Below, piece after piece: positions 2,145-47,497 of a stretch of DNA of 47,497 bases. The translations under genes were made by a program, and so were the position numbers. A model generated the notes under the pieces. That model saw nothing but the letters and a program-made list of their open reading frames with translations, searched no databases and was not told the DNA's origin. Position 1 is the stretch's first letter, and each line of letters begins with the position of its first letter. The stretch covers positions 1 to 47,497 of the forward strand of contig JADGDR010000014.1 in assembly GCA_016744795.1 (NCBI GenBank). The letters run 5' to 3'. The DNA is from Sulfurospirillum sp. Lineage in GTDB: Bacteria; Campylobacterota; Campylobacteria; Campylobacterales; Sulfurospirillaceae.

Positions 2145-2151
2145 GGAAAAA

Positions 2152-2793
2152 ATGAGAGAAAACAATTTATCATCAAAAGCGTACTATATACTTGAAGAGT
2201 TATTAGTAACGCTACAACTAGAACCAGCAAAAATCTATTCAGAAAAAGAGCTTATGGATATATCTGGCATAAGCAGGACTCCTTTACGAGAGGCACTTTT
2301 AAGATTGTCAAATGAGTCATTACTTAAAATTATACCTAGACGTGGTATTGAGATTAGTGACATCAATATGATTGACCAGTTGGCAATGTTTGAGACTAGA
2401 AGAGTACTTGATACTCTTTTGATTCAACGAGCAACAAAATATGCTACACCATTTGAAAAAGAGAAAATAATATCACTAAAAATATTGATGCAAGAAGCAG
2501 TTAGCAAAAACAAAGTAGATGGTTATTTAAGAGTTGATGAGGAACTAGATCATACCATCTTTAAGATAGCAAGAAATGAGTTTGCTGCACATGCAACCAT
2601 ACCTTTACATGTAAAGAGTAGACGCTTTTGGTATTACTTTAAAGGGAGTGAAGATATGCACTCTTGCTCAGTTTTACATACAAAGATGATAGACGCTATT
2701 GTAGATGGTGATGAGGTAAATGCCGTGAAATATTCTAATGAAATTATTGATAACTTAGTTGTTGTTGTGAAAGACTATATACAGAGTTTATAA
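2152..2793 (+). CDS. GntR-family (FCD) transcriptional regulator
   Basis: A 213-residue regulator. An N-terminal winged helix-turn-helix (about 10-75) contains SEKELMDISGISRTPLREAL, the conserved GntR recognition-helix region. It is followed by an all-helical FCD ligand domain with Asp/His positions of the metal site (DEELDHTIF, HTKMIDA). It starts 7 nt after the dehydratase stop, with AGGG as ribosome-binding site, so it is the third gene of the operon. FCD regulators usually answer to small carboxylates or amino acids. Here a proline or hydroxyproline-derived ligand is likely, with the nested palindrome at 137-168 as probable target. Confidence 0.85.
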   Translation: MRENNLSSKAYYILEELLVTLQLEPAKIYSEKELMDISGISRTPLREALLRLSNESLLKIIPRRGIEISDINMIDQLAMFETRRVLDTLLIQRATKYATPFEKEKIISLKILMQEAVSKNKVDGYLRVDEELDHTIFKIARNEFAAHATIPLHVKSRRFWYYFKGSEDMHSCSVLHTKMIDAIVDGDEVNAVKYSNEIIDNLVVVVKDYIQSL

Positions 2794-2794
2794 G

Positions 2795-3673
2795 ATGGAA
2801 AAAATCAAACTTTAGCCTACAAGTATGCACTTATAGCTGTGCTCTTTTGGTCAACAACAGCCACAGTTTTAAAAGTTACATTAAAGTTTATAACTCCCTT
2901 GGAACTTCTTTTTTATTCAGCATGTAGTTCTCTTTTTATTTTGGGTATGATTTTGACATACCAAAAAAAATTTGGTGCAGTTTTTTTTCATATTAAAAAT
3001 CAGCCTATAATAGTCCTTGTCTTGGGTGCTATTAATCCTTTTATATATTATCTTATACTTTTTTAGTGCTTATGATTTACTTCCAGCACAAGAGGCTCAG
3101 ACCATCAACTATACATGGGCATTGATGTTTGCTTATCTTTCAGTTTTATTTTTAAAGCAGAAGTTAACAAAGGGAGATGTTCTAGCAGGAATAATTTGTT
3201 ATTTTGGTGTTTTGATTATATCTACTAAAGGGAATCCTTTTTCTCTAGATTTTTCAGATTTATTTGGTATTATATTAGCTCTTATAAGTACAGTTTTATG
3301 GGCTTTATATTGGATAATAAATACAAATTCTAAAGCAGATGCTACAGTAGGTCTTTTTTCAAATTTTTTAGTTGGCACAATTCTTATAGGATTATATGTT
3401 GTTTTTGTAGGAGGTATAAATCTACCAAATCTTCAAGCAACTTTTGGAGTTATTTACGTAGGTTTTTTTGAGATGGGAATTACTTTTGTGTTTTGGTTGA
3501 AAGCAGTAATCTTAACACCAAGCGTATCAAAAATCTCAAATCTTATATTTTTGTCACCCTTTTTATCTTTGGTTTTTATCTATTTTTTTGTGGGTGAAGA
3601 GATACTCCTTTCAACCATAGTAGCTCTATTTTTAATCATAAGCGGTTTAGTCATTCAACAAAAGTGGAAGTAG
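2795..3673 (+). pseudogene. EamA/DMT-family transporter disrupted by two homopolymer frameshifts
   Basis: A drug/metabolite-transporter superfamily permease of about ten hydrophobic segments, presumably an amino-acid or metabolite exporter. It is readable only by switching frame twice. The natural ATG at 2795 gives MEKIKL and then a stop. One extra A in the A6 run just after it would give MEKNQTLAYKYALIAVLFW, which continues smoothly. Near 3059-3066 a T6 run causes a second stop. With one T fewer the sequence runs on as YYLILFSAYDLLPAQEAQTI, a typical EamA junction. From there to 3673 the frame is open. It could be a true pseudogene, a phase-variable gene, or two base-calling errors. The start is 2 nt after the GntR stop, so it is operonic. 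Confidence 0.75.
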
Positions 3674-3830
3674 TTAATGTTGTTTTGAATTAAAATATTT
3701 AAGAATCAATTATTTGCAGACGATTAGCTATTTAAAAATCTAGGTTGAAGTATATGAGTAGTACAGACTTTTTTTCTTCCTTAAGCCTATTTCCCATTTT
3801 TATCTAAATACACATAGTGTTTTTATTTAT

Positions 3831-3873: not shown

Positions 3874-4533
3874 ATGGAAAAAGAAATGGTAATTGATGTT
3901 ATTGGGTTAGTGTGTCCTCCTGGAGGATTAGTAGCTAAATACTTAATGAATATATCAACTAAATCCAGTGAAAAATTATTAAATAAACGATTAAATGATA
4001 TTGATTTAACTAAATTAGAATTGCTTTTTGTCAATTATATATTAGATATTGCAAGTAAAAGAGATGAATCAATAGACAATATTGAAATAGATTGTAGTGA
4101 ACTTATGGAAGCATTAAATTTACAAGAAAATGACTTTAATGATATAAGATATAACTTAGAAAGTTACGAATTTTTAGGTACGAGATTAGCAATGGGAAAT
4201 TGTTGTGCTTGTAGGTTAAATTATTCATTATTTTGGAAATCTAATTATTTAGAGTTGACTACAGAATATTCATTAAATTTTGAGTATTTACTGAAATCAA
4301 TTATTGATTATTTGTATTTGGAAAAAAGACACTTAACTGAAGAGGTAGATATACGAACATTATCTGAAAAATTTACTACGGAACAAATAAACCCTGTACT
4401 TGCATATTTACATGAAATTGGAGTCGCACAACATATTTCTTACAGCAGACCACAAGTTAAATATTTATACTTTAGTTTTTTTCTTGATAAACCAAAGCTA
4501 GTCAAAGTTTATAAAAGTTTATTATTAACATAA
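3874..4533 (+). CDS. Uncharacterised 219-residue protein
   Basis: Not recognised. A soluble, helix-rich, Asn/Leu-rich protein without signal peptide or membrane segment. The central motif GNCCACRLN (about 108-116) has three closely spaced cysteines, and an N-terminal VCPPGG adds another. Together they could bind a metal or be redox-active. The C-terminal part (ADVR-like helix, QINPVLAYLHEIGVAQHI) has the look of a winged helix. It has its own promoter and stands alone between convergent and codirectional neighbours. Base composition is even more AT-rich than the neighbours, so horizontal acquisition is possible. It could be a solitary regulator or a remnant of a mobile region. Confidence 0.6.
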   Translation: MEKEMVIDVIGLVCPPGGLVAKYLMNISTKSSEKLLNKRLNDIDLTKLELLFVNYILDIASKRDESIDNIEIDCSELMEALNLQENDFNDIRYNLESYEFLGTRLAMGNCCACRLNYSLFWKSNYLELTTEYSLNFEYLLKSIIDYLYLEKRHLTEEVDIRTLSEKFTTEQINPVLAYLHEIGVAQHISYSRPQVKYLYFSFFLDKPKLVKVYKSLLLT

Positions 4534-4613: not shown

Positions 4614-5768
4614 CTACTCAGTAACAATGCACGTAGGTTTTTCAAAGTAAAAACCTTGGTAGTAGTCAAAACCTAGTTTTTGGGCTTCTTCAAAAGAGGC
4701 GTTTGAGTTTATGTGAGTTGCTATGGTTTTTATGTTTTGTTCTTTACATGTAGAGATTATTTTTTTACATGTAGAGACTGCGTTAGCGTCTATTTGTAGA
4801 AGTCTTATTAGGTCGCCTTTTATTTTGACAAACTCTATTTCTAGGTCTTTTATGTAGCTTGTATTATCGACGTTGTCGAGACAAATTTTAATATTTAGTT
4901 TTTTTAGTTCTGCTATTTTTTCAGGAAGTCTACTGTTGTGTAGGCACTCTTCATTTTGTAGTTCAAAAACAGTATTGCTATTTTTAAAACCTTCTGTATA
5001 AATCTGGTATAACTCATCATCAAAAAGTTCAGAACAAGATATATTTACTGCTTTAGCCTCTTTAATAGAGTTCATTTTTCCAATAACAAGTTTCACTATT
5101 TGTGTATAGAAACCTTTTTCTTTTGCAATATTTAAAAATATTTTTGGAGGAATTACTCCATTTTTACTGACAATACGAATTAGAGCTTCTTGGTAGAGAG
5201 TATTTTTGTCTAAGTTAATTACTTTTTGAAAATATGGAGTTATGGTTCCATCTTCAATAGAATCATGGAGTAAAGTGCATATGCGCTCTTCATCTTCTTC
5301 TAATAGAATATTTACAAAATCAGAGTATGTCATAAACGGCTGATTCTCTTTTTGTGCAATTTTCAAAGCTTTTTGTGCTTTTTTTAGAAGATTGTTTTGA
5401 TCCAAACAGATGCCCATGTGAGCTTTTATTGTGATTTCTTCTTTGTTGAAATTATACTTTTGAGCTTTTATAAAATCTATAACTAAAAAAAGAAGTTTTT
5501 CGATAGTTTTTAAATCAAAAGGTATATCTTTGATAAGGGCAAATTCATCTTCTTGCACTCTAAATGCACTCATGTTATTGTTTTTTGCAAAATTTGTTAA
5601 AGATAAAGCAAACTCTTTTAAAACAAAATCTCCAGCTTCATCAGAGTAAGTTAGGTTTAATTTAGTAAAATCTTTTAAGTCAATTAAAAAAAGTTTTGGG
5701 TGTTTAGACTCTTTTAAAGTCTGCAAAAGTGAGTTGAAAGAAGGTATATGAGTTAAAGTATCTAACAA
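4614..5768 (-). CDS. Degenerate GGDEF-EAL domain protein
   Basis: A 384-residue cytoplasmic protein with a GGDEF-like domain (about 1-155) and an EAL-like domain (about 165-384). The diguanylate cyclase signature is replaced by QEDEF within RVQEDEFAL. The EAL domain keeps EALIR but lacks DDFG (here LDNVD) and the later AEGVE (here ATHIN). It therefore probably neither makes nor degrades c-di-GMP and may act as a binding or regulatory protein. The start is TTG at 5768, and the next upstream in-frame codon but one is a stop. The TTG overlaps the mobA stop as TTGTTAG, so translation is coupled to mobA. Two TACATGTA palindromes (4745, 4766) fall in a frame that reads STCK rather than LHV. Confidence 0.75.
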   Translation of the reverse strand: MLDTLTHIPSFNSLLQTLKESKHPKLFLIDLKDFTKLNLTYSDEAGDFVLKEFALSLTNFAKNNNMSAFRVQEDEFALIKDIPFDLKTIEKLLFLVIDFIKAQKYNFNKEEITIKAHMGICLDQNNLLKKAQKALKIAQKENQPFMTYSDFVNILLEEDEERICTLLHDSIEDGTITPYFQKVINLDKNTLYQEALIRIVSKNGVIPPKIFLNIAKEKGFYTQIVKLVIGKMNSIKEAKAVNISCSELFDDELYQIYTEGFKNSNTVFELQNEECLHNSRLPEKIAELKKLNIKICLDNVDNTSYIKDLEIEFVKIKGDLIRLLQIDANAVSTCKKIISTCKEQNIKTIATHINSNASFEEAQKLGFDYYQGFYFEKPTCIVTE

Positions 5769-6331
5769 ATTTTATCCTTTGCTTTTTCGTATTCCTCAGG
5801 ACGATTTAGATTGGAAAATGTCTCATCACTAAGAAAATCAACATATTTAGTTTTTACTTTATCTAAAAGATTTCTTATTTTGTGATTGTTAGCTTCTATA
5901 TGTTTTTTTAAAATAGGTAAAATTGAAGGAGAGTAGATAGCACAAAGTTGATGAGAACCATAAGGAGACTTAGCTATAACAACAGCATAATCATCTTTAC
6001 ATGTAAAGAGTTTTTCGTAAACTTCTAAAGTTACAAAAGGCGTATCAACACTAAGTATACAAACAGGAGTGTCAAACTTTTTAAGTATGCTATAGAGGGC
6101 TATAAGAGGAGAGTATTCATCAAATTCTTTAGTATCTTCTATAAAACTTGCTTTAAAGTCAAATTTTTCTTTAGTTTTACAGCTTACATGTAAAGAGACA
6201 AAGTTATTTTTGTGCTTGTCAAGTTGGTATTGAGTTAGAGTTTGAGATGAACCAAAAGGAAGCAACGATTTGTCACTTCCCATACGACTACTTCTGCCAC
6301 CTGCGACTATAACACAAGGTAAGTCTAGCAT
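5762..6331 (-). CDS. mobA: Molybdenum cofactor guanylyltransferase MobA
   Basis: A 189-residue nucleotidyltransferase. The N-terminus VIVAGGRSSRMGSDKSLLPF is the MobA loop that binds GTP, and SVDTPFV matches the conserved second nucleotide motif. It attaches GMP to molybdopterin to make the bis-MGD cofactor used by formate dehydrogenase, nitrate reductase and related enzymes. The ATG overlaps the leuC stop as TAATG, and its own stop overlaps the next gene, so leuC-mobA-GGDEF/EAL is one coupled transcription unit. Length is normal for the family. Confidence 0.9.
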   Translation of the reverse strand: MLDLPCVIVAGGRSSRMGSDKSLLPFGSSQTLTQYQLDKHKNNFVSLHVSCKTKEKFDFKASFIEDTKEFDEYSPLIALYSILKKFDTPVCILSVDTPFVTLEVYEKLFTCKDDYAVVIAKSPYGSHQLCAIYSPSILPILKKHIEANNHKIRNLLDKVKTKYVDFLSDETFSNLNRPEEYEKAKDKIC

Positions 6332-7590
6332 TATCTTGGGTCTACTATTTTCCCTGCAATTGCACTTGCAGCTGCAACTGCTGAATTTGCTAAGTAAATT
6401 TCACTACTTCTGTCTCCCATGCGACCTATAAAGTTTCTGTTTGTAGTTGCGACACATCTTTCACCTTTTCCAAGAATTCCCATGTATCCACCAAGACAGG
6501 CTCCACATGTTGGGTTAGAAAAAACTGCTCCAGCGTTAATGAAGATTTCTACTAAACCCTCTTTACTTGCTTGAAGTGAGATTTTTTGTGTGGCTGGAGT
6601 GATGATAAGTCTTGTTTTTCTTGCTACTTTTTTACCGTCAAGAATTTTAGCAGCCATTCTTAAGTCTTCAATTCTTCCGTTTGTACAGCTTCCGATAAAT
6701 ACTTGGTCAAGGTCTAAGTTGTCAGCAACTGCTTGAGATACAGGTTTACCATTTGATGGTAAATGAGGGTAAGCAATAACAGGTTCAAGCGCAGCAACAT
6801 CTATATGAAGTGTTTGAACGTAAGTTGCATTTTCATCAGAGTAAAACTCTTTTGGTTCGCGTGCTAAAGTTTTATCAGCTAAAAATTCTCTTGTTATGTC
6901 ATCAACTGCAACAATTCCGTTTTTAGCACCAGCTTCAATAGCCATATTGCAAAGCGAAAATCTATCAGCCATGTTTAGATGAGCGATTGTATCACCAGTG
7001 AATTCTAAAGTTCTATAAAGTGCACCATCAACCCCAATCATACGGATAACTTCAAGAATAAGGTCTTTACCATAAATGTGTTTTCCAGGTTTACCACTAA
7101 ATACAACTTTTATAGCTTCAGGAACTTTAAACCAATTTCCACCAGTAATCATGGCATATGAGAGGTCAGTACTTCCCATACCAGTTGCAAATGCTCCTAA
7201 AGCACCATGCGTACAGGTGTGAGAATCAGCCCCAATAATGACATCGCCAGGAATCACAAGACCTTTTTCAGGTAAAAGTGCATGTTCTATTCCCATGTCT
7301 TTTTCATCAAAATAGTGTTTTAAATTATGTTTGTAGGCAAATTCACGGCTAATTTTTGCTTGATTTGCTGAAGCAATATCTTTTGCAGGGATGAAGTGAT
7401 CCATAACAATAGAAAAGCCATCTGGATTTGCTAGTTTTTCTACGCCACTATCTTCAAATGCTTTTATGCTTATTGGTGTTGTGATATCATTTCCTATAAC
7501 CATATCTATGTTACATTCTATGATCTCACCAGCTTTAACTTCTCGACCGACATGATCACTAAATATTTTTTCTGTGATTGTTTGACCCAT
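6331..7590 (-). CDS. leuC: 3-isopropylmalate dehydratase large subunit
   Basis: A 419-residue aconitase-family protein of the shorter archaeal/epsilonproteobacterial LeuC type. The [4Fe-4S] cysteines are in FIGSCTNGR and NPTCGACLGG, with DHFIPAKD and GADSHTCTHG near the N-terminus. It isomerises 2- to 3-isopropylmalate in leucine synthesis together with LeuD. No leuD lies in this window, so the small subunit must be encoded elsewhere. It is first in the operon. A 145-nt divergent leader holds two perfect hairpins (7617-7675) that may form part of its 5' untranslated region. Confidence 0.92.
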   Translation of the reverse strand: MGQTITEKIFSDHVGREVKAGEIIECNIDMVIGNDITTPISIKAFEDSGVEKLANPDGFSIVMDHFIPAKDIASANQAKISREFAYKHNLKHYFDEKDMGIEHALLPEKGLVIPGDVIIGADSHTCTHGALGAFATGMGSTDLSYAMITGGNWFKVPEAIKVVFSGKPGKHIYGKDLILEVIRMIGVDGALYRTLEFTGDTIAHLNMADRFSLCNMAIEAGAKNGIVAVDDITREFLADKTLAREPKEFYSDENATYVQTLHIDVAALEPVIAYPHLPSNGKPVSQAVADNLDLDQVFIGSCTNGRIEDLRMAAKILDGKKVARKTRLIITPATQKISLQASKEGLVEIFINAGAVFSNPTCGACLGGYMGILGKGERCVATTNRNFIGRMGDRSSEIYLANSAVAAASAIAGKIVDPR

Positions 7591-7735: not shown

Positions 7736-10003
7736 ATGCAAAATATAATCAAGTTAGTAATTATTTTTTTATTGTCACTTAATCTGTACTCTAGTGAAGA
7801 TTTAGAAAAGGTTTCTCTTCAGCTCGAGTGGAAATTTCAGTTTGAACATGCTGGATTTATAATGGCTAAGGAGAAAGGTTTTTACAAAGAAGTTGGCTTA
7901 GATGTCATTTTGTTAGAGTACGAAGATGGTATAGATATTGAAGAAGATGTAATATCTAAAAAAGTAGATTTTGGTATCTCAAATACTCCTTTGATGGTAA
8001 AAAATGAAATTTTGCAACCAGTAGTTTTATTGGCGACATATCTACAAAGATCACCTCTCGTTTTTGTTACTCAACCTTATATAAAAAAGCCATCTGACTT
8101 ACAAAAAAAGAGAATTATGGCAACTGATTATGAGTATAAAAATAGTTCCTTGTCTTTGTTTATGGAACATTTTTTTGTACAAAGTACTTATGTACCTCAT
8201 ACTTACAATATAGAAGATTTTAAAAATAAGAAGGTAGATGCTATGAGTGCCTTTACTTCTAATGAACTTTATGATCTTCAAGAACAAAATATTTCTTACA
8301 ACATTATGGATCCATCTCAATTTGGATTTATTACAAATGCTATGAATCTTTTTTGTTCTTATGATACAGCTGAAAATGAGATAGATAAAGTCCTAAAATT
8401 CCTTAATGCTACTAAAAAAGGGTGGCAATATGCACTTGATAATACGGATGAGACTATAAACATAATACATCAAAAATATAATTCTAAAAGATCCATAGAA
8501 GCATTGAATTTTGAGGCAAAAGAGATAAGAAAACTAATGCTTTTAGGACTTTATGATATAGGCGAAGTAAGCAAAGAGTTGATGACAAGAGCGTATAAGC
8601 AGCTATCCAGAAGTGGAAAAGCTTTTCCTAATCAAAATGACAAGATGCTTGTTTTTGATGACATATTAAATAAAGTAGGAAACAATTGTGTATTGTTTAC
8701 AAAAAGTGAAAAGGAGTATTTACTTAAAAAAGGAGCTATTAAACTATGTGTGAGTCCTAATTGGATGCCTTTTGAGGGTTTTAAAGATGGAAAATATATA
8801 GGTATGATTGCTGAGTATTTTGAGCTTATACGACAAAAAACAAATTTAAATATAACAATATATCCAACAAAAAGTTGGGCTGAAAATATGGCTGCTATAA
8901 GGAATAAAAAATGTGATATTTTAGGTTCAGCATCACCTACTCCTGAACGTTTAACTTATATGAATTTCACTGATACATATATGAAATCTCCTATTGTATT
9001 GGTTACCAAAGTAGATAAACCTTTTATCAACCATATTACTGATGTGGCTGGGAAAAAGTTAGGTATATCAAAAGGTTATGCGATAAAAGAGATTATTAAA
9101 GGAAGGTATCCTCATATAAATATAATTGATGTAAAAAATATACGAGATGGATTAAAGAGAGTTGAAAATGGAGAACTTTATGGATATGTTGATAATCTTA
9201 GTGTGACAGTATCAACTATCCAGCAGAATTTTCATGGTATTTTAAAAGTATCGGCTAGGTTTGACGAAAATGATGAGTTTACCATAGGTTCAAGAAATGA
9301 TGAACCTATGTTAAATGAGATTTTTCAAAAAGTTGTTCATTCTATAGATAAAACCAAAGTAAGAAACATCTTAAATGAGTGGATTTCAGTAAAAGAGAGT
9401 GTAGGAGTTGATTATACTTTTTTATGGAAGGTAGCTTTTGGCTTATTTTGTATTTTTGTAATAATTATCTTTTATAATTATCAGTTAAGATTGAATAATA
9501 AAAAATTGATTCAAATATCTAGAGAAGATGCTCTAACAAAGGTGGGGAATAGACTTAAACTCAATGAAATTTTAGATGATGAACACAAGTATACACATAG
9601 GTATCAAGTCTCTTGTGGTGTTATACTTTTAGATATTGATGATTTTAAAAAGGTAAACGATATACATGGGCATCTTGAGGGTGATGAAGTTCTTAAAAAA
9701 TTTACGTTAATATTAGCTAAGAATATACGAGAAACTGATAAAGTTGGTAGGTGGGGTGGAGAAGAATTTTTGATTATATGTCCCAATACAAATATGGAAA
9801 ATCTAATTAAAGTTGCAGAGGGCTTAAGAGCAGAGGTTCAAAAGTATAACTTTGGAAAACATATAGATAGCATTACTGCTTCTTTTGGACTTAGCCTTTT
9901 TGATGGTCTCAAAGAAATAGAAGAAGTTTTAGATGAAGCAGATAAGGCTCTTTACTATGCAAAAAACAATGGAAAAAACAGAGTAGTTAATTCAAGAGTT
10001 TAA
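7736..10003 (+). CDS. Receptor diguanylate cyclase: NMT1-like and SBP_bac_3 sensor domains, TM, GGDEF
   Basis: A 755-residue membrane protein. A signal/anchor segment (1-20) is followed by an NMT1/THI5-like solute-binding domain (about 25-300), as in ABC receptors for thiamine precursors or sulfonates. A second, SBP_bac_3-type domain (about 325-555) follows, then a transmembrane helix (about 562-583) and a GGDEF domain. The active site is GGEEF at 674-678, and a product-inhibition I-site RETD lies five residues before it, so it should make c-di-GMP and be feedback controlled. The two periplasmic domains suggest control by small solutes. An extended -10 box TGGTACTAT ends 7 nt before the ATG and no Shine-Dalgarno is visible, so the mRNA is probably leaderless. 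The 3' end overlaps the convergent gene by 17 bp. Confidence 0.87.
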   Translation: MQNIIKLVIIFLLSLNLYSSEDLEKVSLQLEWKFQFEHAGFIMAKEKGFYKEVGLDVILLEYEDGIDIEEDVISKKVDFGISNTPLMVKNEILQPVVLLATYLQRSPLVFVTQPYIKKPSDLQKKRIMATDYEYKNSSLSLFMEHFFVQSTYVPHTYNIEDFKNKKVDAMSAFTSNELYDLQEQNISYNIMDPSQFGFITNAMNLFCSYDTAENEIDKVLKFLNATKKGWQYALDNTDETINIIHQKYNSKRSIEALNFEAKEIRKLMLLGLYDIGEVSKELMTRAYKQLSRSGKAFPNQNDKMLVFDDILNKVGNNCVLFTKSEKEYLLKKGAIKLCVSPNWMPFEGFKDGKYIGMIAEYFELIRQKTNLNITIYPTKSWAENMAAIRNKKCDILGSASPTPERLTYMNFTDTYMKSPIVLVTKVDKPFINHITDVAGKKLGISKGYAIKEIIKGRYPHINIIDVKNIRDGLKRVENGELYGYVDNLSVTVSTIQQNFHGILKVSARFDENDEFTIGSRNDEPMLNEIFQKVVHSIDKTKVRNILNEWISVKESVGVDYTFLWKVAFGLFCIFVIIIFYNYQLRLNNKKLIQISREDALTKVGNRLKLNEILDDEHKYTHRYQVSCGVILLDIDDFKKVNDIHGHLEGDEVLKKFTLILAKNIRETDKVGRWGGEEFLIICPNTNMENLIKVAEGLRAEVQKYNFGKHIDSITASFGLSLFDGLKEIEEVLDEADKALYYAKNNGKNRVVNSRV

Positions 10004-39445: not shown

Positions 39446-40312
39446 TTAATTGTTCCTTAATTCTTTGTATTCATTTGGGATTAAAAAATCTTCAGCCTTT
39501 ATAAGCGTATCATAAAATCCGTTTTTGTAGCCTATCTCAAAGAGCTTGTTGATTGCAGTGTATTGAATCTCATTGAGTTCTACAGAATCTGCATTTGCAT
39601 AGAGACTTAAGTATTTCTCAAGTGTGGGAGCATCTACTCTTATAAGGTCACGTTCAAGTAGCATTTTTGAGAGTGGTTTTGAATGAGTTGTAGCCACTTT
39701 GACTGCTTTTATAAGTGTGTTTTCATAGTCAATTGCACAGTTAATTGGAATTGAACGACGAAGAGCCATGCCACCAAGAGGAAGAGGTAACTCTCCACCA
39801 CTAAGTTCAACCCAAATATCCCAAAGTTCTTTTTCTACTTCAAGGTTGTCATCGTAGGTAAGAATACTTTCATGTATTAGCACACCAGCATCAACTTCAC
39901 CACTTAAAACTGCATTTTCAATTTCTAAAAAGTTTTTGTAAATCACTCTAGCTTCAGGATAATAAATTTTAAATAGCATAGCATTTGTTGTGTGTTCACC
40001 ACTAAGAGCCACTTTGAAATTACGTTTTAGTCTTTTGTCTTTTAGTTTTACTACTTTTGGACCATATCCCTCTCCAAAGCTAACCGCAGTTTTTAGAAGT
40101 GCATAATCGCTTCTTATTTTTGGATAAAGTGCAAAACTAATAGCACTTACGTCATAAGTGTTTTTTAATGCTTCAACGTTTAGCGTTTCTATGTCAAGAG
40201 CAATGTTTGTGAACTCAACATCTTTGAGTGTAACCCAGCCAAATTTGATAGCATAGTACATAAATATATCATCAGCATCTGGAGAGTGAGCTACTGTGAC
40301 CATCTTTTTCAT
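39446..40312 (-). CDS. mqnD: 1,4-dihydroxy-6-naphthoate synthase MqnD
   Basis: A 288-residue periplasmic-binding-protein-fold enzyme of the futalosine menaquinone pathway. It has AHSPDADDIFMYYAI at the N-terminus, ISFALYPKI and GGELPLPLGGMALRR. It makes 1,4-dihydroxy-6-naphthoate from cyclic dehypoxanthinyl futalosine. This fits the phylum, which relies on menaquinone. It overlaps the small upstream gene (ATGA). The MqnA paralogue is similar, but the HSPDADD opening favours MqnD. Confidence 0.9.
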   Translation of the reverse strand: MKKMVTVAHSPDADDIFMYYAIKFGWVTLKDVEFTNIALDIETLNVEALKNTYDVSAISFALYPKIRSDYALLKTAVSFGEGYGPKVVKLKDKRLKRNFKVALSGEHTTNAMLFKIYYPEARVIYKNFLEIENAVLSGEVDAGVLIHESILTYDDNLEVEKELWDIWVELSGGELPLPLGGMALRRSIPINCAIDYENTLIKAVKVATTHSKPLSKMLLERDLIRVDAPTLEKYLSLYANADSVELNEIQYTAINKLFEIGYKNGFYDTLIKAEDFLIPNEYKELRNN

Positions 40313-40536
40313 TTTTTATTCTTCTTTTTTGATGCTTTTGCCATTTTAGCTCTTTTTTTAGCTTTTGCTTTTTTTAAATCTACATTTTTAGCTTTTCTAG
40401 CATTTACTATTTGTTCTTTTTGTTCTACATCTTTAGGTTTAAAACTTGCCTTAATAGCGGCTGTTCTTTGTGTACCAAAAGCTGCTATTTTATCTCCATT
40501 TTTAGTATCGACACTCGAAGTGTTTGTACTTGCCAT
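40309..40536 (-). CDS. Small lysine-rich hypothetical protein
   Basis: A 75-residue, very basic protein with a Lys/Ala-rich C-terminal half (KKAKAKKRAKMAKASKKKNKK is the tail), probably disordered and nucleic-acid binding. AAGG precedes the ATG and its TGA overlaps the mqnD start, so it is translated with mqnD, fliQ and murB. No family recognised. Confidence 0.65.
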   Translation of the reverse strand: MASTNTSSVDTKNGDKIAAFGTQRTAAIKASFKPKDVEQKEQIVNARKAKNVDLKKAKAKKRAKMAKASKKKNKK

Positions 40537-40632
40537 AATCTACCTTGTTTTTTTAATTTCTTTATTATATATAAATTTGGATAAAAAAGGTATTACATTT
40601 AAAGTCTTATAATAATTCATTGGATATCAAAA

Positions 40633-42213
40633 TTATATGCTTGCTTTTACTTCTTTATTTCTACCAGTTTCTTTAGCTTTATAAAGTGCTTTATCTGCTG
40701 ATTCGATTATGAGGCTTGAATTATTATCTTTTCTAGGAAAAATTGTGCAGTAACCTACGCTTATTGTTACAACATCCAAAGTATCTGAAAATTCATGTGG
40801 TATTTGCAATTTTTCAATTGCATGTCTGCATTTTTTTGCTATGACTTGTGCATTTTTTGTATCGGCCATAACGATAGCAAATTCTTCGCCGCCATATCTT
40901 GCAACTAAGTCACCAGGACGATTGACCATGGTTTTTAGCTTACTGGCAACTTTTTTTAAGCATTCATCTCCTTTAAAGTGACCATAGTTGTCATTGTATA
41001 ATTTAAAAAAATCAATATCTATCAAAATAAAGGATATTGGTGACTTGTTACGTATGGCTTGTATCCACTCTTTAGTAAGAAATTTGTCCATATATCTTCT
41101 ATTGGCAATTTCAGTTAGTCCATCTGTGAGTGAAAGTTTTTTTAGTTTTCTATTTGCTCTATTTAACTCTTTAGTTTTTTTAGTAATTATATTTCGTATT
41201 ACATTTGTACGTTTAGCCATAATATGAATATATATAGCAATAAAGACTGAAAAAAAGACACCAGCTATAAAAACTACCCAAGGTAAAAAACTTCTTTTAA
41301 CTGCAATATATTTTTGTGTTGGTGATGCTGTCAAGCTCCATTGTCTACCCCAAAACTTAGGCAACATTTTTTTGTATTTAATTTTTTCATGAGCAATAGC
41401 TCCATCTTGAAACTTGTGAGTATAGAGTATTTCACTTTTATTGGGGGATGTTTCATCTATAATGCTCATTTCAATGCCAAGAGGTTCATTGTTTGAGGAG
41501 GAACTAGTAAAAATATCACCTATGCGATAGACTCCTAGAACAAATCCCTTTAGGTTTTCTCTGCGTTTTTCTACACTTGTTGGATTTTCTTTATATATAG
41601 GATAAAAAGCTAAAAAACCTTTTTGTTTTGCATTTTCTTGTACAAGAGTGATACTGCCAGTGGCCTGAGGAGTAGCAGTATCCATCGAGTTTTTAAGAGT
41701 AGCGTGCCTAGTTGGACTAGAGGAAAGGTCATAGCCAAATGCCGTTTCATTTCCTACAAGTGGTTCAACATAGTAAACAGGAAAATACTCTTTTCTCTTT
41801 TTGGCTTTAATCATTTGTTTTTGCTTTTTTCGTTCTGTGATTTCAAATTTAGGAAATTCTTTTCGTTGTTGTGATACATAAGAATCTCTTTGTTTATGCT
41901 TGATTCTTGGTATCCATTCAAGTGCTTGAATGTCGCAATGACGGCTTAAGATTCTCTTTGCTTCAATACGAAATTGTTGAAATTCAGAAATACTCTCACT
42001 ATTGAATAGTATAGATAAAGAGTGTAGTGTTTCTAGGTTGATTATTATCTCACGGTACAGTGAATTAGCACGTTCATTTACATCTTTACGAAATTCAATA
42101 ACGATTGCTTTTTCTTCCATATTGTAAAGAGACCAGCTAATTATACTTGAGAATATAAGACCAACAACGATAACTAATATTTGCATTATTATTGAATTGT
42201 TTTTTTTATCCAT
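40633..42213 (-). CDS. CHASE-GGDEF diguanylate cyclase
   Basis: A 526-residue membrane protein. TM1 (about 9-28) is followed by a periplasmic CHASE domain (about 40-300; ALEWIPRI and GYDLSSSPTRHATLKNSMD are typical), TM2 (about 312-332) and a short coiled linker. The GGDEF domain has GGEEF at 441-445, and an inhibitory I-site RPGD five residues before it. It should be an active, product-inhibited c-di-GMP synthase responding to an extracellular ligand. It diverges from ung. Confidence 0.92.
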   Translation of the reverse strand: MDKKNNSIIMQILVIVVGLIFSSIISWSLYNMEEKAIVIEFRKDVNERANSLYREIIINLETLHSLSILFNSESISEFQQFRIEAKRILSRHCDIQALEWIPRIKHKQRDSYVSQQRKEFPKFEITERKKQKQMIKAKKRKEYFPVYYVEPLVGNETAFGYDLSSSPTRHATLKNSMDTATPQATGSITLVQENAKQKGFLAFYPIYKENPTSVEKRRENLKGFVLGVYRIGDIFTSSSSNNEPLGIEMSIIDETSPNKSEILYTHKFQDGAIAHEKIKYKKMLPKFWGRQWSLTASPTQKYIAVKRSFLPWVVFIAGVFFSVFIAIYIHIMAKRTNVIRNIITKKTKELNRANRKLKKLSLTDGLTEIANRRYMDKFLTKEWIQAIRNKSPISFILIDIDFFKLYNDNYGHFKGDECLKKVASKLKTMVNRPGDLVARYGGEEFAIVMADTKNAQVIAKKCRHAIEKLQIPHEFSDTLDVVTISVGYCTIFPRKDNNSSLIIESADKALYKAKETGRNKEVKASI

Positions 42214-42329
42214 TTTAAAACCCTCTCAAATATACACTAATAATTAAATATTATACTCTAATGAGAACCTATTGTTTGGTTTATAATGTTTATTTTGATA
42301 AGATTTTAAAAATTTAACTAGGTTTACAC

Positions 42330-43007
42330 ATGATTGATAGACAAATAGACGTGAGTTGGAAAGAGATACTTTGTGATGAGTTTGAAAAGCCATATTTTTC
42401 TAATTTGGAAGATTTTTTACTTGGTGAAAAACAAAACTATACTATTTTGCCAAAAACGAAAGACATATTTAATGCCTTTAATATTACGCCCTTTAATAAA
42501 CTAAAAGTTGTAATAATAGGACAAGATCCATATCATGGAGAAAATCAAGCTCATGGTCTTGCTTTTTCAGTAAATGATGGCATAGCTCATCCTCCTTCTC
42601 TTCGCAATATTTTTAAAGAATTAAAAGAAGATATAGGCTGTGAGATACCTGCTAATGGTAATCTAAACTCATGGGCAAAACAGGGGGTTTTTTTGATAAA
42701 TACAGTTTTAACAGTAAGAGCCCACGAAGCACACTCTCATAAAAACAAGGGTTGGGAAAGATTTATAGAGTATGTTATAAAAATGATTAGCGAAAATAAA
42801 AGTAATGTAGTTTTTATTTTATGGGGTAAACCTGCACAACAAAAAGCAAAGTTGATAGATGAACATAAACATCTTATTCTAAATGCTCCTCATCCATCTC
42901 CTTTGTCATCATATAGAGGTTTTTTCGGTTCAAAACCATTTACAAAAACAAATAGTTATCTGTTAGAACATGATTTAAAAGGTATTGATTGGACTTTGCC
43001 TTTGTAA
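42330..43007 (+). CDS. ung: Uracil-DNA glycosylase
   Basis: A 225-residue family 1 enzyme. The catalytic water-activating motif is GQDPYHGENQAHGLAFS and the minor-groove loop is HPSPLSSYRGFFG. It removes uracil from DNA. Its stop is immediately followed by the convergent stop of the methyltransferase gene (43008), with no spacer. The 11-bp sequence CCTTTGTAATT at its 3' end recurs at 43783. Confidence 0.96.
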   Translation: MIDRQIDVSWKEILCDEFEKPYFSNLEDFLLGEKQNYTILPKTKDIFNAFNITPFNKLKVVIIGQDPYHGENQAHGLAFSVNDGIAHPPSLRNIFKELKEDIGCEIPANGNLNSWAKQGVFLINTVLTVRAHEAHSHKNKGWERFIEYVIKMISENKSNVVFILWGKPAQQKAKLIDEHKHLILNAPHPSPLSSYRGFFGSKPFTKTNSYLLEHDLKGIDWTLPL

Positions 43008-43793
43008 TTATTCTTTTTTTGAATTTTTTGTTTTGTAAGCTTTTAATCTTAGCCTTACATAGTCAGCAACCCATCCATCTTTTTTAGAATAAATTTTTGG
43101 TTTTAAAATTGCTCTTACTTCTTCTTTAAATTGATTTTGTTGTTCTTTCGTTAAATGAGAGATTATCCCATTTGCAAATATATCTAACCAATTTCTAATA
43201 TCATCAATTTTTGTGGGTCGTGGAATTAGTTCAATATATTCAACATTGAAACCATTGTCTTGTAAAAGTTGTTTGTATTCACTATCTTTTGGGAAAATCC
43301 AAGGATTATTGAAGTTACCAAATTCTTCATGTCTGTTAAAAACTTCTTGCATTGCATCTGTTAAAAATTTAATATTTCCATAACCTCCAAACTCTGCAAT
43401 AAATCGTCCGTTATCGTTGAGAGATTTTGAAATTTCTTTTATGGACGCATCAGCATCTTTAACCCAATGCAATACTGCATTTGAAAACACTGCATCAAAT
43501 TCATTTACAAAAGTTAATTGGGTGGCACTCATTACAAAAGCTTCAATGCCCCTTTCTTTAGTTTTTTCAACCATACTATCGCTCAAATCTACAGCAATAA
43601 CTTTTGATTTGCATTTTATTATTTCAGCTGCTAATGTTCCATCACCACAGCCTAGATCCAAAATATTTTCATTTTCTTGTGGATTTAGTAATTCTAGTAC
43701 TGGAAATGCTAAATTAGATACAAAATCAGCATGTTTATTATATTTATCAGCATTCCATTTATTTATATTATCCAAGTATATTCCTTTGTAATT
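42999..43793 (+). repeat. 11-bp direct repeats flanking the methyltransferase gene
   Basis: CCTTTGTAATT occurs at 42999-43009 (end of ung) and at 43783-43793, just upstream of the methyltransferase start. The two copies bracket the gene exactly. They may mark an insertion or a recombination boundary at the end of the integron array. Confidence 0.4.
43008..43775 (-). CDS. Class I SAM-dependent methyltransferase, possible last integron cassette
   Basis: A 255-residue methyltransferase. SAM motif ILDLGCGDGTLAAEI (about 38-52), AVDLSDSMVE and SNAVLHWVKD are typical of the UbiE/Tam small-molecule class, with most resemblance to trans-aconitate methyltransferase-like proteins. Start TTG at 43775 with AAAGGA upstream. 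The sequence just upstream (43788-43818) is a 3' attC half, so the gene sits where a cassette would begin, but no attC follows it before ung. It could be a cassette that lost its attC or ordinary chromosome at the array end. Confidence 0.75.
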   Translation of the reverse strand: MDNINKWNADKYNKHADFVSNLAFPVLELLNPQENENILDLGCGDGTLAAEIIKCKSKVIAVDLSDSMVEKTKERGIEAFVMSATQLTFVNEFDAVFSNAVLHWVKDADASIKEISKSLNDNGRFIAEFGGYGNIKFLTDAMQEVFNRHEEFGNFNNPWIFPKDSEYKQLLQDNGFNVEYIELIPRPTKIDDIRNWLDIFANGIISHLTKEQQNQFKEEVRAILKPKIYSKKDGWVADYVRLRLKAYKTKNSKKE

Positions 43794-43818
43794 TAACGGT
43801 AAGCTTGAGCTTGCTCTC
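43788..43818 (-). other. 3' half of a degenerate attC site
   Basis: On the minus strand the sequence CTTAACCGTTA (43806-43796) is identical to the L'/R' end of the complete attC at 45102-45175. The upstream AAGCTCAAGCTT could form a local stem. A matching 5' half with TAAC is not seen within the preceding 100 nt, so this is read as a half-site left by deletion or insertion. Confidence 0.5.
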
Positions 43819-43847
43819 TTTTCTATTATTATAGTTTATTGTATATT

Positions 43848-43916
43848 TATCGTTTGTTTTGGATTATCTCCATATTGATTTGATTCTGCATCACTATCTT
43901 GTATTGCCCAAACAAC
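43848..43916 (-). pseudogene. C-terminal remnant of a DUF805-like membrane protein
   Basis: Twenty-two codons ending in TAA read VVWAIQDSDAESNQYGDNPN plus KR. The hydrophobic lead and the NQYGxNP end match the C-terminus of DUF805 inner-membrane proteins (typically DSxPGxNKYGPNPKG). The frame begins exactly at the inverted repeat of the transposase element, so the element has cut the gene. No upstream half is recognisable on the other side. Confidence 0.5.
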
Positions 43917-44777
43917 TAGGGTCAGGACACAACCCACTACCTAACATCTCTAAATACTTTAGAAATCATAGCAGGGGATATTTTTAAATATTTTGCAATT
44001 TCTGATTGTTTGTATCCATCTTCTATTGCAGTTATTATATCTTTATTTCTTTGTGGTAAATCTTGAGTATCTGTAAAATGCTCTTGTAGTGTTCTATTTT
44101 TTTCTTGAATGATTCTGTTCTCTTTATTTAAAATTATCTTTTTTTGTTCAGCTTGTAGTGTTTCTAGCTCTTTTTTGCTAAATTTAACTGATAAATACTC
44201 TTTTATATCATCCAATTCATTTTTAAGCTTTGAATTAATAGCACAAGGAATAATATTTAAATTTGTATTTATTATTGTGCCTAATAGTGTAAAAGGATAT
44301 TCTCCTATAGTGTTTGTGATTTTTGCATCAACTGGATTGTATTCTATATATTTAAATAAAGAATATAAATAATCATCATTTAGTATATACCATGATTTGT
44401 ATCTACCTTGCCAGAGATGTCCAATTCTTTTATATTTTTTGTTAAAGTATATTGCATAATTACTATTTACTTGACGCATAAACTGGCTTAGATTTTCAAG
44501 TGATAATTCTATTAATAGATGGTAATGATTGTCCATTAAACAATAAGTATGTATATCAACTTTATGTAATTTACATGCTTTACATAAAATTTCTAAAAAT
44601 TTATTTTTATCATCATTACATTTAAATACATTTTTTCTTTCTACTCCACGATTTACAATATGATGAAATCCTGCCATATCTAATCTTGGTCTTCTTGCCA
44701 TAAAATATTCCATTTGTTTTATTTGAAGTATTTTAGCTTAATTTCACTTAAAAGTAGTGGATTGTGTCCTGACCCTA
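43917..44777 (-). mobile_element. REP-associated (Y1) transposase element with 24-bp inverted repeats
   Basis: Terminal repeats TAGGGTCAGGACACAAYC and onward lie at 43917-43940 and, inverted, at 44754-44777, with one mismatch in 24. They enclose a single Y1/HUH transposase gene whose stop codon lies inside the left repeat. The right end continues into three 15-bp tandem copies (to 44811). It sits within the integron array and truncates a DUF805-like cassette gene. Confidence 0.7.
43937..44701 (-). CDS. REP-associated tyrosine transposase (RAYT, Y1_Tnp)
   Basis: A 254-residue HUH-superfamily nuclease. It has MARRPRLDMAGFHHIVNRG at the N-terminus, the HUH-containing MDNHYHLLIE (about 62-71), and FMRQVNSNYAIYFNKKYKR with the catalytic tyrosine, followed by GHLWQGRYKS. 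A C-terminal helix-turn-helix (IEDGYKQSEIAKYLKISPAM) follows. RAYTs nick single-stranded hairpins of REP-like repeats. The ATG at 44701 gives the standard family start; ATG 44713 is an alternative. Here the flanking inverted repeats may be its substrate. Confidence 0.87.
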   Translation of the reverse strand: MARRPRLDMAGFHHIVNRGVERKNVFKCNDDKNKFLEILCKACKLHKVDIHTYCLMDNHYHLLIELSLENLSQFMRQVNSNYAIYFNKKYKRIGHLWQGRYKSWYILNDDYLYSLFKYIEYNPVDAKITNTIGEYPFTLLGTIINTNLNIIPCAINSKLKNELDDIKEYLSVKFSKKELETLQAEQKKIILNKENRIIQEKNRTLQEHFTDTQDLPQRNKDIITAIEDGYKQSEIAKYLKISPAMISKVFRDVR

Positions 44778-44811
44778 AATTTCCTGACCCTAAATTTCCT
44801 GACCCTAAATT
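44767..44811 (+). repeat. Three perfect 15-bp tandem repeats
   Basis: The unit TCCTGACCCTAAATT occurs three times in a row (44767-44781, 44782-44796, 44797-44811). The first copy overlaps the right inverted repeat of the transposase element. Read on the minus strand it encodes repeating NLGSG after an ATG at 44834, but the frame has no clear ribosome-binding site. The rest of the 44702-44860 gap holds only the 5' half of a probable second attC. Confidence 0.85.
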
Positions 44812-44860
44812 CCCAATAGCTCTGAAAAATCGAAAAAGCATTTATCTCTACAATTTTTTG

Positions 44861-45088
44861 TTATATCTCTTTGTATCGTTGTCGTAATTTTTTAAACCAC
44901 TTAAATATTTCAGGTGTCAATAATAAAAATGTTAATGTTAGCCATAAATGTTGAAAATCAAATCTATCTTTAAACCCTTCTGCTAAAATTTGAAATATGC
45001 TCATAAATAAAAATATAATTATTAGAGTTCCTCTTAGTTTATTTTTATTAATCCATCCATACTTAAACCATTTTAATATAAAATCCAT
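44861..45088 (-). CDS. Small two-helix membrane protein (integron cassette 2)
   Basis: A 75-residue protein with two hydrophobic segments (about 19-36 and 47-61) and basic ends (MDFILKWFKYGWINKNKLRG, KKLRQRYKEI). AAGGAG precedes the ATG at good spacing, supporting translation. Its stop lies within AGATATAAC, the R'' end of its attC. Family not recognised. Small membrane proteins are common in chromosomal integron cassettes. The cassette's ends are GTTATATCT at 44860-44868 and the complementary AGATATAAC at 45102-45110. Confidence 0.75.
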   Translation of the reverse strand: MDFILKWFKYGWINKNKLRGTLIIIFLFMSIFQILAEGFKDRFDFQHLWLTLTFLLLTPEIFKWFKKLRQRYKEI

Positions 45089-45101
45089 ACTTCTGCTCCT
45101 T

Positions 45102-45175
45102 AGATATAACGGTTAAGGAGAGCAATAGTTTCCCCGCTAGGGTAAACTATTAGCTCCTGCGTTTTGTTATGATAC
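45102..45175 (-). other. Complete attC recombination site (attC1)
   Basis: On the minus strand, R'' GTATCATAAC (45175-45166) is followed by AAAACGC and AGGAGC. A long central stem comes next (AATAGTTT pairing with AAACTATT, and CCC with GGG around TAGC). The site closes with GCTCTCCTTAACC and R' GTTATATC (45110-45103). The imperfect dyad symmetry, the unpaired bases and a total near 74 nt are those of integron attC sites. R'' is the exact complement of the first 10 nt of the cassette (46343-46334). Confidence 0.88.
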
Positions 45176-46321
45176 TTACCCCTTGAAAGTTGTAAGTAAT
45201 AAAACTAATTTATCTCTTTCAATTAAACTCTGAATTGAATGTATTAAAGCTGTACTTTGATTATCGGACTTCTCAAATAGTTTGGCTAAAGTTGTAAAGT
45301 TTTTTACTTGTATTAATGATAGATTTTCTTTTAATTTAGTTAGTTCATTAAAATTTGTATCATTAATGTATATAAATAGTTTACCAATTAGTCCAATTAT
45401 TACATCAGATATTTGTATCAGGTCATTAGTTGTTGAATTTTGAAATTCAAAATTCTCCCATTTCTTTTTATCGTCCAAGAACTCCCATCTTTCAAAAATA
45501 TTCTCAATACTGCTTTCTTCATCAAAAATATGATAGGAGTTTTTAAAAATACCAAATGGTCTTTTGTAAAAAATAAATAAATCATCTATTAGTATATGAC
45601 TTTTTTCATCCATAATAAAAGGTAGTTCTGTATTTTTTGATTCTTCTATAATTTGATAAACTAGACCAATTAAACTTTTATCAATAGTTGGGTACTTTGA
45701 AATAAATTTTGTCTCATTAATTTTTATATAATTCAAGATTTCATCTAAAAAGTCATTTGCTTTTTTTCTATCAATATTTGGATACTCATATTTATATAGT
45801 ATTTCAATAAATTTATTTAAATCTATTTTTATAAACTCATAGAGAATTGTTTTTAATTCCATATGAATTTGAAGCAAATCTTGAGGAATCATTGATTCTA
45901 AAATATCAATAGTTGACCAATATAAAATATTTAAATTTGAATAATGTAAAAATAAATCATTTGATACGAACCAGTCTAAAAATATTTCAAGTTTTTTAGA
46001 TTTTAAGCATGATAAAAAATCACCTTTAGCTATATATGTTAATTTCATTTCTTTAACTGTATTTGGTAATTTTAAATCTTGATTTAATCTTTCTGTATCA
46101 AAATTTATTTTTGACTTAAGATGAGAGACTCCACCTAAAACAAAATTTTTAGATAAATCTGTAATAGGAATATTAAATTTATTTTCATTTTTAAACCAAA
46201 ACTTTCTAAGATTATTTGTTTCATCGTAATAAAAAGTATATTCAGTATCAATATTTTTAAAATTATGCATTTTGATTTCTAAATCTCTATTCTCATTAAT
46301 ATTAAACTTCATTTTTTCCAT
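45176..46321 (-). CDS. DUF3800-like protein (integron cassette 1)
   Basis: A 381-residue soluble protein of the DUF3800 type. YTFYYDETNNLRKFW (about 28-42) carries the conserved Asp-Glu start of the RNase H-like fold. FIMDEKSHI in the middle and a late LIQISDVIIGLIGK match the QxxD(x)2 helix of the family. Function is unproven; members occur in mobile elements and defence-like islands. AAGG precedes the ATG, which lies 22 nt from the attI crossover. The stop is directly followed by attC R''. Composition is more AT-rich than its neighbours. It is the first cassette and so the best expressed. Confidence 0.7.
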   Translation of the reverse strand: MEKMKFNINENRDLEIKMHNFKNIDTEYTFYYDETNNLRKFWFKNENKFNIPITDLSKNFVLGGVSHLKSKINFDTERLNQDLKLPNTVKEMKLTYIAKGDFLSCLKSKKLEIFLDWFVSNDLFLHYSNLNILYWSTIDILESMIPQDLLQIHMELKTILYEFIKIDLNKFIEILYKYEYPNIDRKKANDFLDEILNYIKINETKFISKYPTIDKSLIGLVYQIIEESKNTELPFIMDEKSHILIDDLFIFYKRPFGIFKNSYHIFDEESSIENIFERWEFLDDKKKWENFEFQNSTTNDLIQISDVIIGLIGKLFIYINDTNFNELTKLKENLSLIQVKNFTTLAKLFEKSDNQSTALIHSIQSLIERDKLVLLLTTFKG

Positions 46322-46333
46322 TTTGTTAGCCTT

Positions 46334-46343
46334 GTATCATAAC
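46334..46343 (-). other. attI x attC junction (insertion point of cassette 1)
   Basis: On the minus strand GTTATGATAC, a GTTRRRY-type core, with the crossover expected between G (46343) and T (46342). It is the reverse complement of the attC1 R'' arm at 45166-45175. The attI site proper lies on the integrase side (about 46343-46420). Confidence 0.8.
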
Positions 46344-46359
46344 TACTTATTCAACGAAC

Positions 46360-46368
46360 ATTATAACA
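46360..46368 (-). promoter_or_regulatory. Candidate cassette promoter Pc
   Basis: On the minus strand TGTTATAAT is an extended -10 box, ending 17 nt before the attI crossover and pointing into the cassettes. No good -35 is visible, which is normal for this phylum. Transcription would start near 46353. Confidence 0.6.
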
Positions 46369-46471
46369 CACTTGGCTCTTATTTAATAATTAACTGAACA
46401 TAAAAAGTGTACATTGATTGTTGAAAATATTTCATTTTGTAATGTTTTTAGCTCTTTTTTTAGAAATGCTC

Positions 46472-46477
46472 TATAAT
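46472..46477 (+). promoter_or_regulatory. Candidate -10 box for intI
   Basis: TATAAT on the plus strand, 117 nt before the intI ATG, leaving a long leader. The rest of the 46344-46594 region holds the attI site and the inverted repeat at 46562. Confidence 0.4.
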
Positions 46478-46561
46478 CCTTAAAAATAAAATGTGTTTTT
46501 AAAAAGAATATGGCAGATATTGGAACACTTTATGAGGTATTTGTTTAAAAACCTTTTAAAA

Positions 46562-46574
46562 GAACATTTTGTTC
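46562..46574 (+). promoter_or_regulatory. GAAC-N5-GTTC inverted repeat upstream of intI
   Basis: GAACA-TTT-TGTTC lies 20 nt before the intI start, just ahead of the ribosome-binding site. It resembles a LexA box of the GAACN4GTTC type but has one extra spacer base. It could equally be a small hairpin that affects translation. Confidence 0.4.
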
Positions 46575-46594
46575 CTTAAGCAAAGGAGGTAGAT

Positions 46595-47497
46595 ATGAGT
46601 CAAAAAAATAGATTATTAGATATTGTTAGAGATAAGATAAGAATAAAGCACTATAGTATTTCAACTGAAAAGACTTATGTTCATTGGATAAAATGTTATA
46701 TTTTATTTCACAACAAAAAGTACCCAACTGAAATGGGAAAAGATGAGATAGAACAGTATTTGACAAGTCTTAGTGTTAGAAACAAAGTATCTGCTACTAC
46801 GCAGAATCAAGCATTTTCTGCGATACTTTTTTTGTATAGAGAAGTTTTAGACATAGACATGAGTGAGTGGGACATACAAGCTTTAAGAGTTCAGGAGAAA
46901 AAACATATACCAACTGTTTTGACTAGGGAAGAAGTAGAAAAAATCATATTTAATTTAAATGGTATTTATCATCTTCTAACTTCTTTGATGTATGGTTGTG
47001 GTTTGAGGATGAGTGAGCTTTTAAGTCTTAGACTCAAAGATATTGACTTTGACTTTGACAAGATATACATTTGGGATAGCAAGTCACTTAGGGACAGAAC
47101 TTTACCATTGCCAAGTAAGTTAAAAACAAAGCTTATGGCACAAGTTGAACTAGTGAAAGAGTTACATGTAAAGGATTTGGCAGATGGTCATGGAACTGTT
47201 TATATGCCTTATGTCTTTGAAAAAAAGTATCCTAAAGCAAATAAAGAGACAAAATGGCAGTTTTTATTTCCTATGACTAAGGTAAGTAAAGACCCAAAAA
47301 GTCAAACCTTAAGGAGACATCATATTCATCCTCAAACATTAGGTCGCAACATAAAACAAGCTTCTTTAAAAGCAAATATTAACAAAAGGGTAACATCACA
47401 TATATTTAGGCATTCGTATGCCACACATCTTTTACAAGCGGGTATAGATTTAAGAACCATACAAGAACTGTTGGGACACAGAAGTGTTGAAACTACG
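46595..47497 (+). CDS. intI: Integron integrase IntI (3' end outside window)
   Basis: The first 301 residues of a tyrosine recombinase. The core-binding domain is at about 1-100. The catalytic domain has Arg138 (GCGLRMSELL), HIFRH (His269, Arg272) and LGH (His295); the nucleophile Tyr lies past the edge. Between them, residues about 205-245 carry the insert unique to integron integrases: KYPKANKETKWQFLFPMTKV, then SKDPKSQTLRRHHIHPQTL. This separates IntI from XerC/D. AGGAGG sits 5 nt before the ATG. It is divergent from the cassettes, as in class 1 integrons. A TACATGTA palindrome at 47163 suggests that it has long been resident in this genome. Confidence 0.96.
   Translation, partial: MSQKNRLLDIVRDKIRIKHYSISTEKTYVHWIKCYILFHNKKYPTEMGKDEIEQYLTSLSVRNKVSATTQNQAFSAILFLYREVLDIDMSEWDIQALRVQEKKHIPTVLTREEVEKIIFNLNGIYHLLTSLMYGCGLRMSELLSLRLKDIDFDFDKIYIWDSKSLRDRTLPLPSKLKTKLMAQVELVKELHVKDLADGHGTVYMPYVFEKKYPKANKETKWQFLFPMTKVSKDPKSQTLRRHHIHPQTLGRNIKQASLKANINKRVTSHIFRHSYATHLLQAGIDLRTIQELLGHRSVETT

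Follow-up and report, generated by a model that had tools for sequence, protein, structure and literature searches.

A DUF3800 gene lies in an integron cassette near the end of contig 27 of the Sulfurospirillum sp. genome GCA_016744795.1 (30 contigs, 2.68 Mb). The window, i.e., the whole stretch of DNA analysed here, is this entire contig (47,497 nt), and its relevant features are collected in Table 1. The ORF lies exactly where a sequence-only reading of the window had placed it; that reading took the gene for the first cassette of an integron and for a candidate anti-phage or nucleic-acid-processing gene. The best explanation of the locus as a whole, which we regard as reasonably probable, is that the gene encodes an RNase H-like defence nuclease, dependent on metal and acting by itself, that is spread as an integron cassette.

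Table 1 Features of the integron region in the window (positions are those of the whole contig).
Feature	Position	Strand	Basis and remarks
SAM methyltransferase gene	43008..43797	-	R'-like 5' junction GTTAAATTAC
REP-associated tyrosine (Y1) transposase element	~43909..44782	-	Profile match; ends set from partial genome copies
Cassette 2, 75-aa ORF	44861..45088	-	Starts at R' junction 45109; R'' AGATATAAC overlaps stop
attC of cassette 1, 69 nt	45104..45172	-	R'' TCATAAC 45166-45172; R' GTTATAT 45104-45110; hairpin
Integron gene cassette 1, intact, 1233 nt	45110..46342	-	10/10 complementary R'/R'' ends; homology with relatives starts at the boundary
DUF3800 / PDC-S51 protein with a predicted RNase H-like fold, 381 aa	45176..46321	-	Pfam, PADLOC, predicted structure
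intI-cassette intergenic region	46343..46594	.	Junction read in sequence; G of recombination junction = 46343
Integron integrase intI, 3' end missing	46595..47497	+	TIGR02249 378 bits against a cut-off of 265; open at contig end

The two ends of cassette 1 mirror each other. On the minus strand, GTTATGATAC begins at 46343, a distance of 22 nt before the ATG, and the sequence that immediately follows the stop codon, GTATCATAAC, is the exact reverse complement of GTTATGATAC. The resulting R'/R'' pair is complementary throughout, and a 10-nt match occurred in none of 5000 shuffles of both flanks. The attC folds into a hairpin whose stem has 15 pairs, and the 101 nt around it fold with z = -2.8. 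As far as sequence can tell, cassette status is best proved by comparison: three attC sites in Sulfurovum GLR145 (locus L022) share 83-87% identity with this attC. They are located before the PDC-S51 gene of that locus (5922-5982), after the same gene (7148-7217) and after the next one (8014-8077), and the Sulfurovum genome holds an integron integrase above the cut-off. DNA similarity to the cassettes in L021, L022 and L013/G238 starts at the predicted cassette boundary. The complementary ends, the folding attC shared with the L022 array and the adjacent integrase bear out the proposed cassette, which is complete and probably still mobile.

The integrase gene is transcribed away from the DUF3800 gene, and its last part is out of sight because the ORF runs off the contig end. 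No ORF of at least 60 aa is listed between intI and cassette 1, in agreement with the first position assigned to the cassette earlier. The intergenic region presumably holds attI and Pc, and the cassette might be expressed from the integron promoter; a promoter scan of positions 44700-46700 returned fewer sites than the shuffles did. The array appears to be short and in partial decay, cassette 1 alone being intact, because the attC region of cassette 2 is interrupted by the Y1 transposase element and the methyltransferase gene has no recognisable 3' attC. The Y1 element sits downstream of cassette 2, at the expected place of its attC, bears inverted ends of 24 nt as well as three end repeats at 15-nt spacing, and has partial copies on contigs 9, 11, 13, 26 and 29 of the same genome. 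The ORF of cassette 2 has no confident family in Pfam, and the methyltransferase gene is possibly a decayed cassette 3.

The assignment to DUF3800 held: the protein scores 34.3 bits against Pfam PF12686 (gathering cut-off 21), covering profile positions 2-147 of 149, and a long internal insertion spreads the match over residues 30-313. The accompanying statement that no clear function is established is not entirely accurate, since a candidate label already exists. PDC-S51, a single-gene model that PADLOC lists as a phage-defence candidate, matches the full-length protein with 355.5 bits (positions 1-370 of the 376 in the profile), and DUF3800 proteins are described as RNase H-fold nucleases in some VI-F and V-A2 loci in a 2025 classification (PMC12669027). 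The PADLOC entry carries no description; unlike this bare entry, PDC-S51 appears here as an integron cassette in Campylobacterota. All 72 relatives in our alignment match PDC-S51, although all were gathered by similarity to the PDC-S51 protein. A search of NCBIfam gave no match, and the PHROGs match, phrog_15126, is of unknown function.

Structure prediction with AlphaFold2, based on the 72 aligned sequences, gave a confident model (pLDDT 95, pTM 0.92) that is consistent with the RNase H-like fold anticipated earlier. In the structural alignment of this model, rows 1-15 were all RNase HII or HIII (Z 5.5-7.3 over 136-161 residues) and the next row reached 3.7; a Z below 8 may reflect a common arrangement alone and is no proof of kinship, but fifteen rows from one family, well above the rest, are hard to account for in another way. 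Foldseek against the PDB returned no match with E < 1, and a sequence search of the PDB gave nothing convincing. In a viral fold library, the top match (E = 0.027, probability 0.96) was to a DUF3800 protein of a phage and adds nothing beyond Pfam. A published AlphaFold2 study describes DUF3800 as an RNase H fold that has undergone a catalytic rearrangement (PMC10910872).

Conservation of acidic residues points in the same direction. The alignment, A2, comprises 72 of 86 available sequences (the window and 71 of 85 loci) after exclusion of near-identical, truncated and stop-containing ones, and D33, E34, E91, K93, D139, H264, D267, E269, S296 and D306, among others, are invariant in all 72. For D33 and E34 this is partly by construction, because the genome scan required the motif [FML][YF][YH]DETNN; the other acids were not imposed. 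We therefore also consider a set of nine sequences in which peptide patterns played no part, seven of them found by tblastn in plasmid and phage records and one by whole-genome search: D33, E34, D139, H264, D267, E269 and D306 are again invariant (9 of 9), and E91 is replaced by Asp in one. Both motifs singled out by the sequence-only reading contain invariant acids, D33/E34 in YDETN and D306 in ISDVI. Neither of the outcomes that would have spoken against that reading, a predicted structure lacking the fold or homologues lacking conserved acids, was observed.

By structural alignment, the predicted core resembles that of RNase HII and HIII overall; the Asp-Glu pair of the first motif and an Asp that follows one of the later strands are further similarities. 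In contrast to these enzymes, the protein has a helical insertion, lacks the GRG motif and any profile similarity, and places its third and fourth acids elsewhere. Membership in RNase HII (PF01351) was considered and rejected, there being no profile similarity and DETNNL standing in place of DEAGRG; a profile comparison by hhalign, with 18 of the 22 RNase HII sequences found as the comparison set, gave no signal (probability 0.2). The query segment YHIFDEE (residues 263-269) resembles RNase HII YLFDGN, with D93 invariant in the local RNase HII sequences, which is a mere suggestion because the profile comparison left the two segments unaligned.

Most probably, the protein is a metal-dependent nuclease whose RNase HII-like core is broken up by a helical insertion at about residues 132-258. 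Its putative active site would consist of D33-E34, where the first core strand ends, of D267/E269 together with H264, and of D306. Such a protein would probably act alone, cutting nucleic acid upon sensing a phage or another foreign element, and its substrate would more plausibly be RNA or an RNA-DNA hybrid than plain DNA. Its role could then be that of a single-gene anti-phage or abortive-infection effector. Alternatively, the protein might be an RNA-processing or regulatory nuclease of mobile elements, working on a partner RNA rather than in defence. Rfam holds RNA families named after DUF3800 (DUF3800-I, DUF3800-IX), one paper ties DUF3800 to putative ncRNAs, and the family is present on plasmids and in prophages. 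However, no Rfam DUF3800 RNA occurs in positions 40000-47497 of the window or in any of the 12 relatives' loci tested (127 kb). Moreover, the ORF fills 1146 of the 1233 nt of the cassette and leaves about 90 nt, nearly all of them attC, so that neither a second gene nor a separate structured RNA would fit. We consider a partner-RNA nuclease unlikely here.

The reading as a defence nuclease spread by integrons gains from the recurrence of PDC-S51 in integrons, namely in L021, L022, L033 and a copy in genome G238. Three attC scans based on consensus rules were dropped, as two of them missed the true attC of cassette 1 and matches on the control strand were in excess (9 loci against 6 control matches in one, 6 against 3 in another). 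The final test relied on end complementarity and a hairpin, nothing else. With at least 8 complementary nt, it detected attC-like ends at 6 of 98 genes, whereas 30 permutations gave 0.37-0.47 on average and 1-2 at most. The 98 genes exclude duplicated or broken copies (L109, L006, L012, L013, L014, L113, L114, L101, L102 and L103) and any match shorter than 250 aa. The test misses L033, L053, L094 and L015, which were judged by eye, while L044, gained when 7 nt were allowed, is probably a chance match.

Read by eye, G238 has the same cassette start, GTTATGAGACAAGG, after a different attC, and its copy of the gene contains a frameshift or stop and reaches the contig end; the gene of G021/L023 retains only a degenerate R''. 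In L021, a short noncoding cassette-like stretch separates the PDC-S51 gene from a two-gene cassette downstream (1453-3809), coding for an AAA ATPase (top PADLOC match AriA, 5e-28) and a DUF4435 protein; as DUF4435 corresponds to AriB, the two form a PARIS-like pair. The bin label of L021, Peptostreptococcaceae, is probably wrong, because both its gene and its attC resemble those of Campylobacterota. Beside their AT-rich PDC-S51 cassettes, both L021 (1324-1495) and L013 (830-970) have a short noncoding cassette-like stretch with a very GC-rich attC.

Outside Campylobacterota, a 40% identical gene of Anaerolineales (L033) directly adjoins intI (436.7 bits), and related sites at 4241-4306, 5647-5712 and 6557-6607 bracket this gene and a MazE/MazF pair. 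The latter (5820-6443) makes up a second cassette after PDC-S51. In Gammaproteobacteria (L053), the gene either belongs to an array next to intI or adjoins the last unit of that array, and no clear attC of its own was recognised. Attachment-like ends were also seen in Bacteroidota, by the final test in L025, L035 and L093 and by eye in L094, in whose genomes no integron integrase scored above the cut-off. These Bacteroidota genes are flanked by complementary ends and an attC-like hairpin of 115-120 nt (7121-7250 in L025, 7096-7245 in L093), and L025 and L093 have central sequence in common.

Defence genes are plentiful around the relatives. At a threshold of 1e-10, the flanking ORFs scanned (137 of the 292 selected) matched 228 PADLOC families in one set of 89 ORFs and 86 in another of 48, whereas 75 ORFs flanking rnhB matched 11, a contrast that is rough because families rather than proteins are counted, AAA ATPases match many models at once and the control ORFs come from Campylobacterota only. 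The matches include GajA/GajB (Gabija), AriA, PD-T7-1, AbiLi (AbiL), AbiEii (AbiE), PtuA, LmuB (Lamassu) and type IIG restriction-modification. Three of eight plasmid loci viewed, one of which is unannotated, carry AbiEii, AbiG or another Abi gene nearby. In one Campylobacterota genome (G488, locus L112, 85-2544), a DUF3800 domain of the PDC-S51 type is fused to the C-terminal side of a type ISP restriction enzyme; the 1956-aa frame holds the specificity domain Type_ISP_C at 80-430 (310 bits) and DUF3800 at 485-741. A GmrSD-like gene adjoins this fusion. In the P2-like phage fiAA91-ss, the PDC-S51 gene lies between the tail genes G and FI, a position that we take to be the fun(Z) exclusion locus of P2.

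From this context, a role of the PDC-S51 cassette in defence is likely. Our literature search returned no report of phage protection by a PDC-S51 protein or a close relative, and a 2026 survey describes the PDCs as derived from guilt-by-embedding and still unvalidated (PMC12988326). The same neighbourhoods could arise if the protein served the housekeeping of mobile elements, i.e., plasmid or prophage exclusion, stability or replication, with defence genes nearby incidentally. Relatives do occur among plasmids (147 of 72,556 records) and phages (3 of 50,697 records), and superinfection exclusion by prophages would give the same genomic picture. Against this stand the lone cassette, which belongs to no such element, the fusion to a restriction enzyme and neighbours that vary between loci, and we judge a housekeeping role to be improbable.

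The spread of PDC-S51 is patchy and broad. Within the order, 3 of 298 genomes hold a relative at E <= 1e-10, and within the phylum PDC-S51 is present in 5 of 397 genomes, the Sulfurospirillum genome being included in both counts. The genome scan yielded 176 relatives, of which the best 80 were kept, IMG/VR contributed 8 loci with relatives, and near-identical copies of the fiAA91-ss gene occur in 6 of 5426 E. coli genomes. That the gene is an inert passenger, a captured cassette without a present function in its host, is very unlikely: this patchiness, the broken G238 copy and the lack of a promoter excess would suit it, but the ORF is intact, dN/dS values of 0.21-0.24 against three relatives indicate purifying selection, and patchiness is equally typical of defence genes.

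Integron-borne defence cassettes are reportedly described by Darracq 2025 and Kieffer 2025. Like those of V. cholerae, V. parahaemolyticus and mobile integrons, the cassette described here joins a defence-type gene to its own attC; in contrast to them, it belongs to another phylum, occupies the first position beside intI and carries a gene of a family for which the DUF3800 literature searched mentions no cassette. That integrons act as stores of defence genes has already been published, as stated in a review (PMC12409362), and In0 and CALIN elements are listed for vent Campylobacterota in Table 1 of a survey. A DUF3800 gene as an integron cassette did not appear in the titles and abstract openings of the literature searched. 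What is new here is the gene family, the phylum and the repeated capture of PDC-S51 by integrons. Since integron defence stores are mostly known from Vibrio and mobile integrons, the present case extends the idea to Campylobacterota as well as to a further lineage of integrons. The same Pfam domain, described as an RNase H fold, is found in accessory proteins of Cas12a2 (V-A2) and VI-F systems, and those adjacent to Cas12a2 carry TPR domains, whereas the cassette protein stands alone. No CRISPR genes were detected among six neighbouring ORFs scanned against Pfam.

A defence role of the cassette protein, if true, would mean that one branch of DUF3800 has its first function; other members of the family occur alongside Cas12a2 and VI-F CRISPR systems. 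As a single-gene candidate, the cassette is compact, and its predicted active site is within reach of three point mutations. In a wider and more tentative picture, for which the odds are somewhat short of even, PDC-S51, its RNase HII-like site rearranged, would serve as a single-gene nuclease against phages and would have been captured repeatedly, and the integrons of Campylobacterota and Chloroflexota, possibly together with the integrase-less attC-like units of Bacteroidota, would serve as shared reservoirs in which it resides alongside PARIS-like cassettes.

We also noticed that the PDC-S51 genes of ten loci (L042, L043, L040, L044, L046, L049, L055, L056, L058 and L072), with hosts that include Pedobacter, Chryseobacterium and Flavobacterium, have flanking ORFs whose lengths and spacing are equal or nearly so, as would be expected of a single mobile element that has spread widely.
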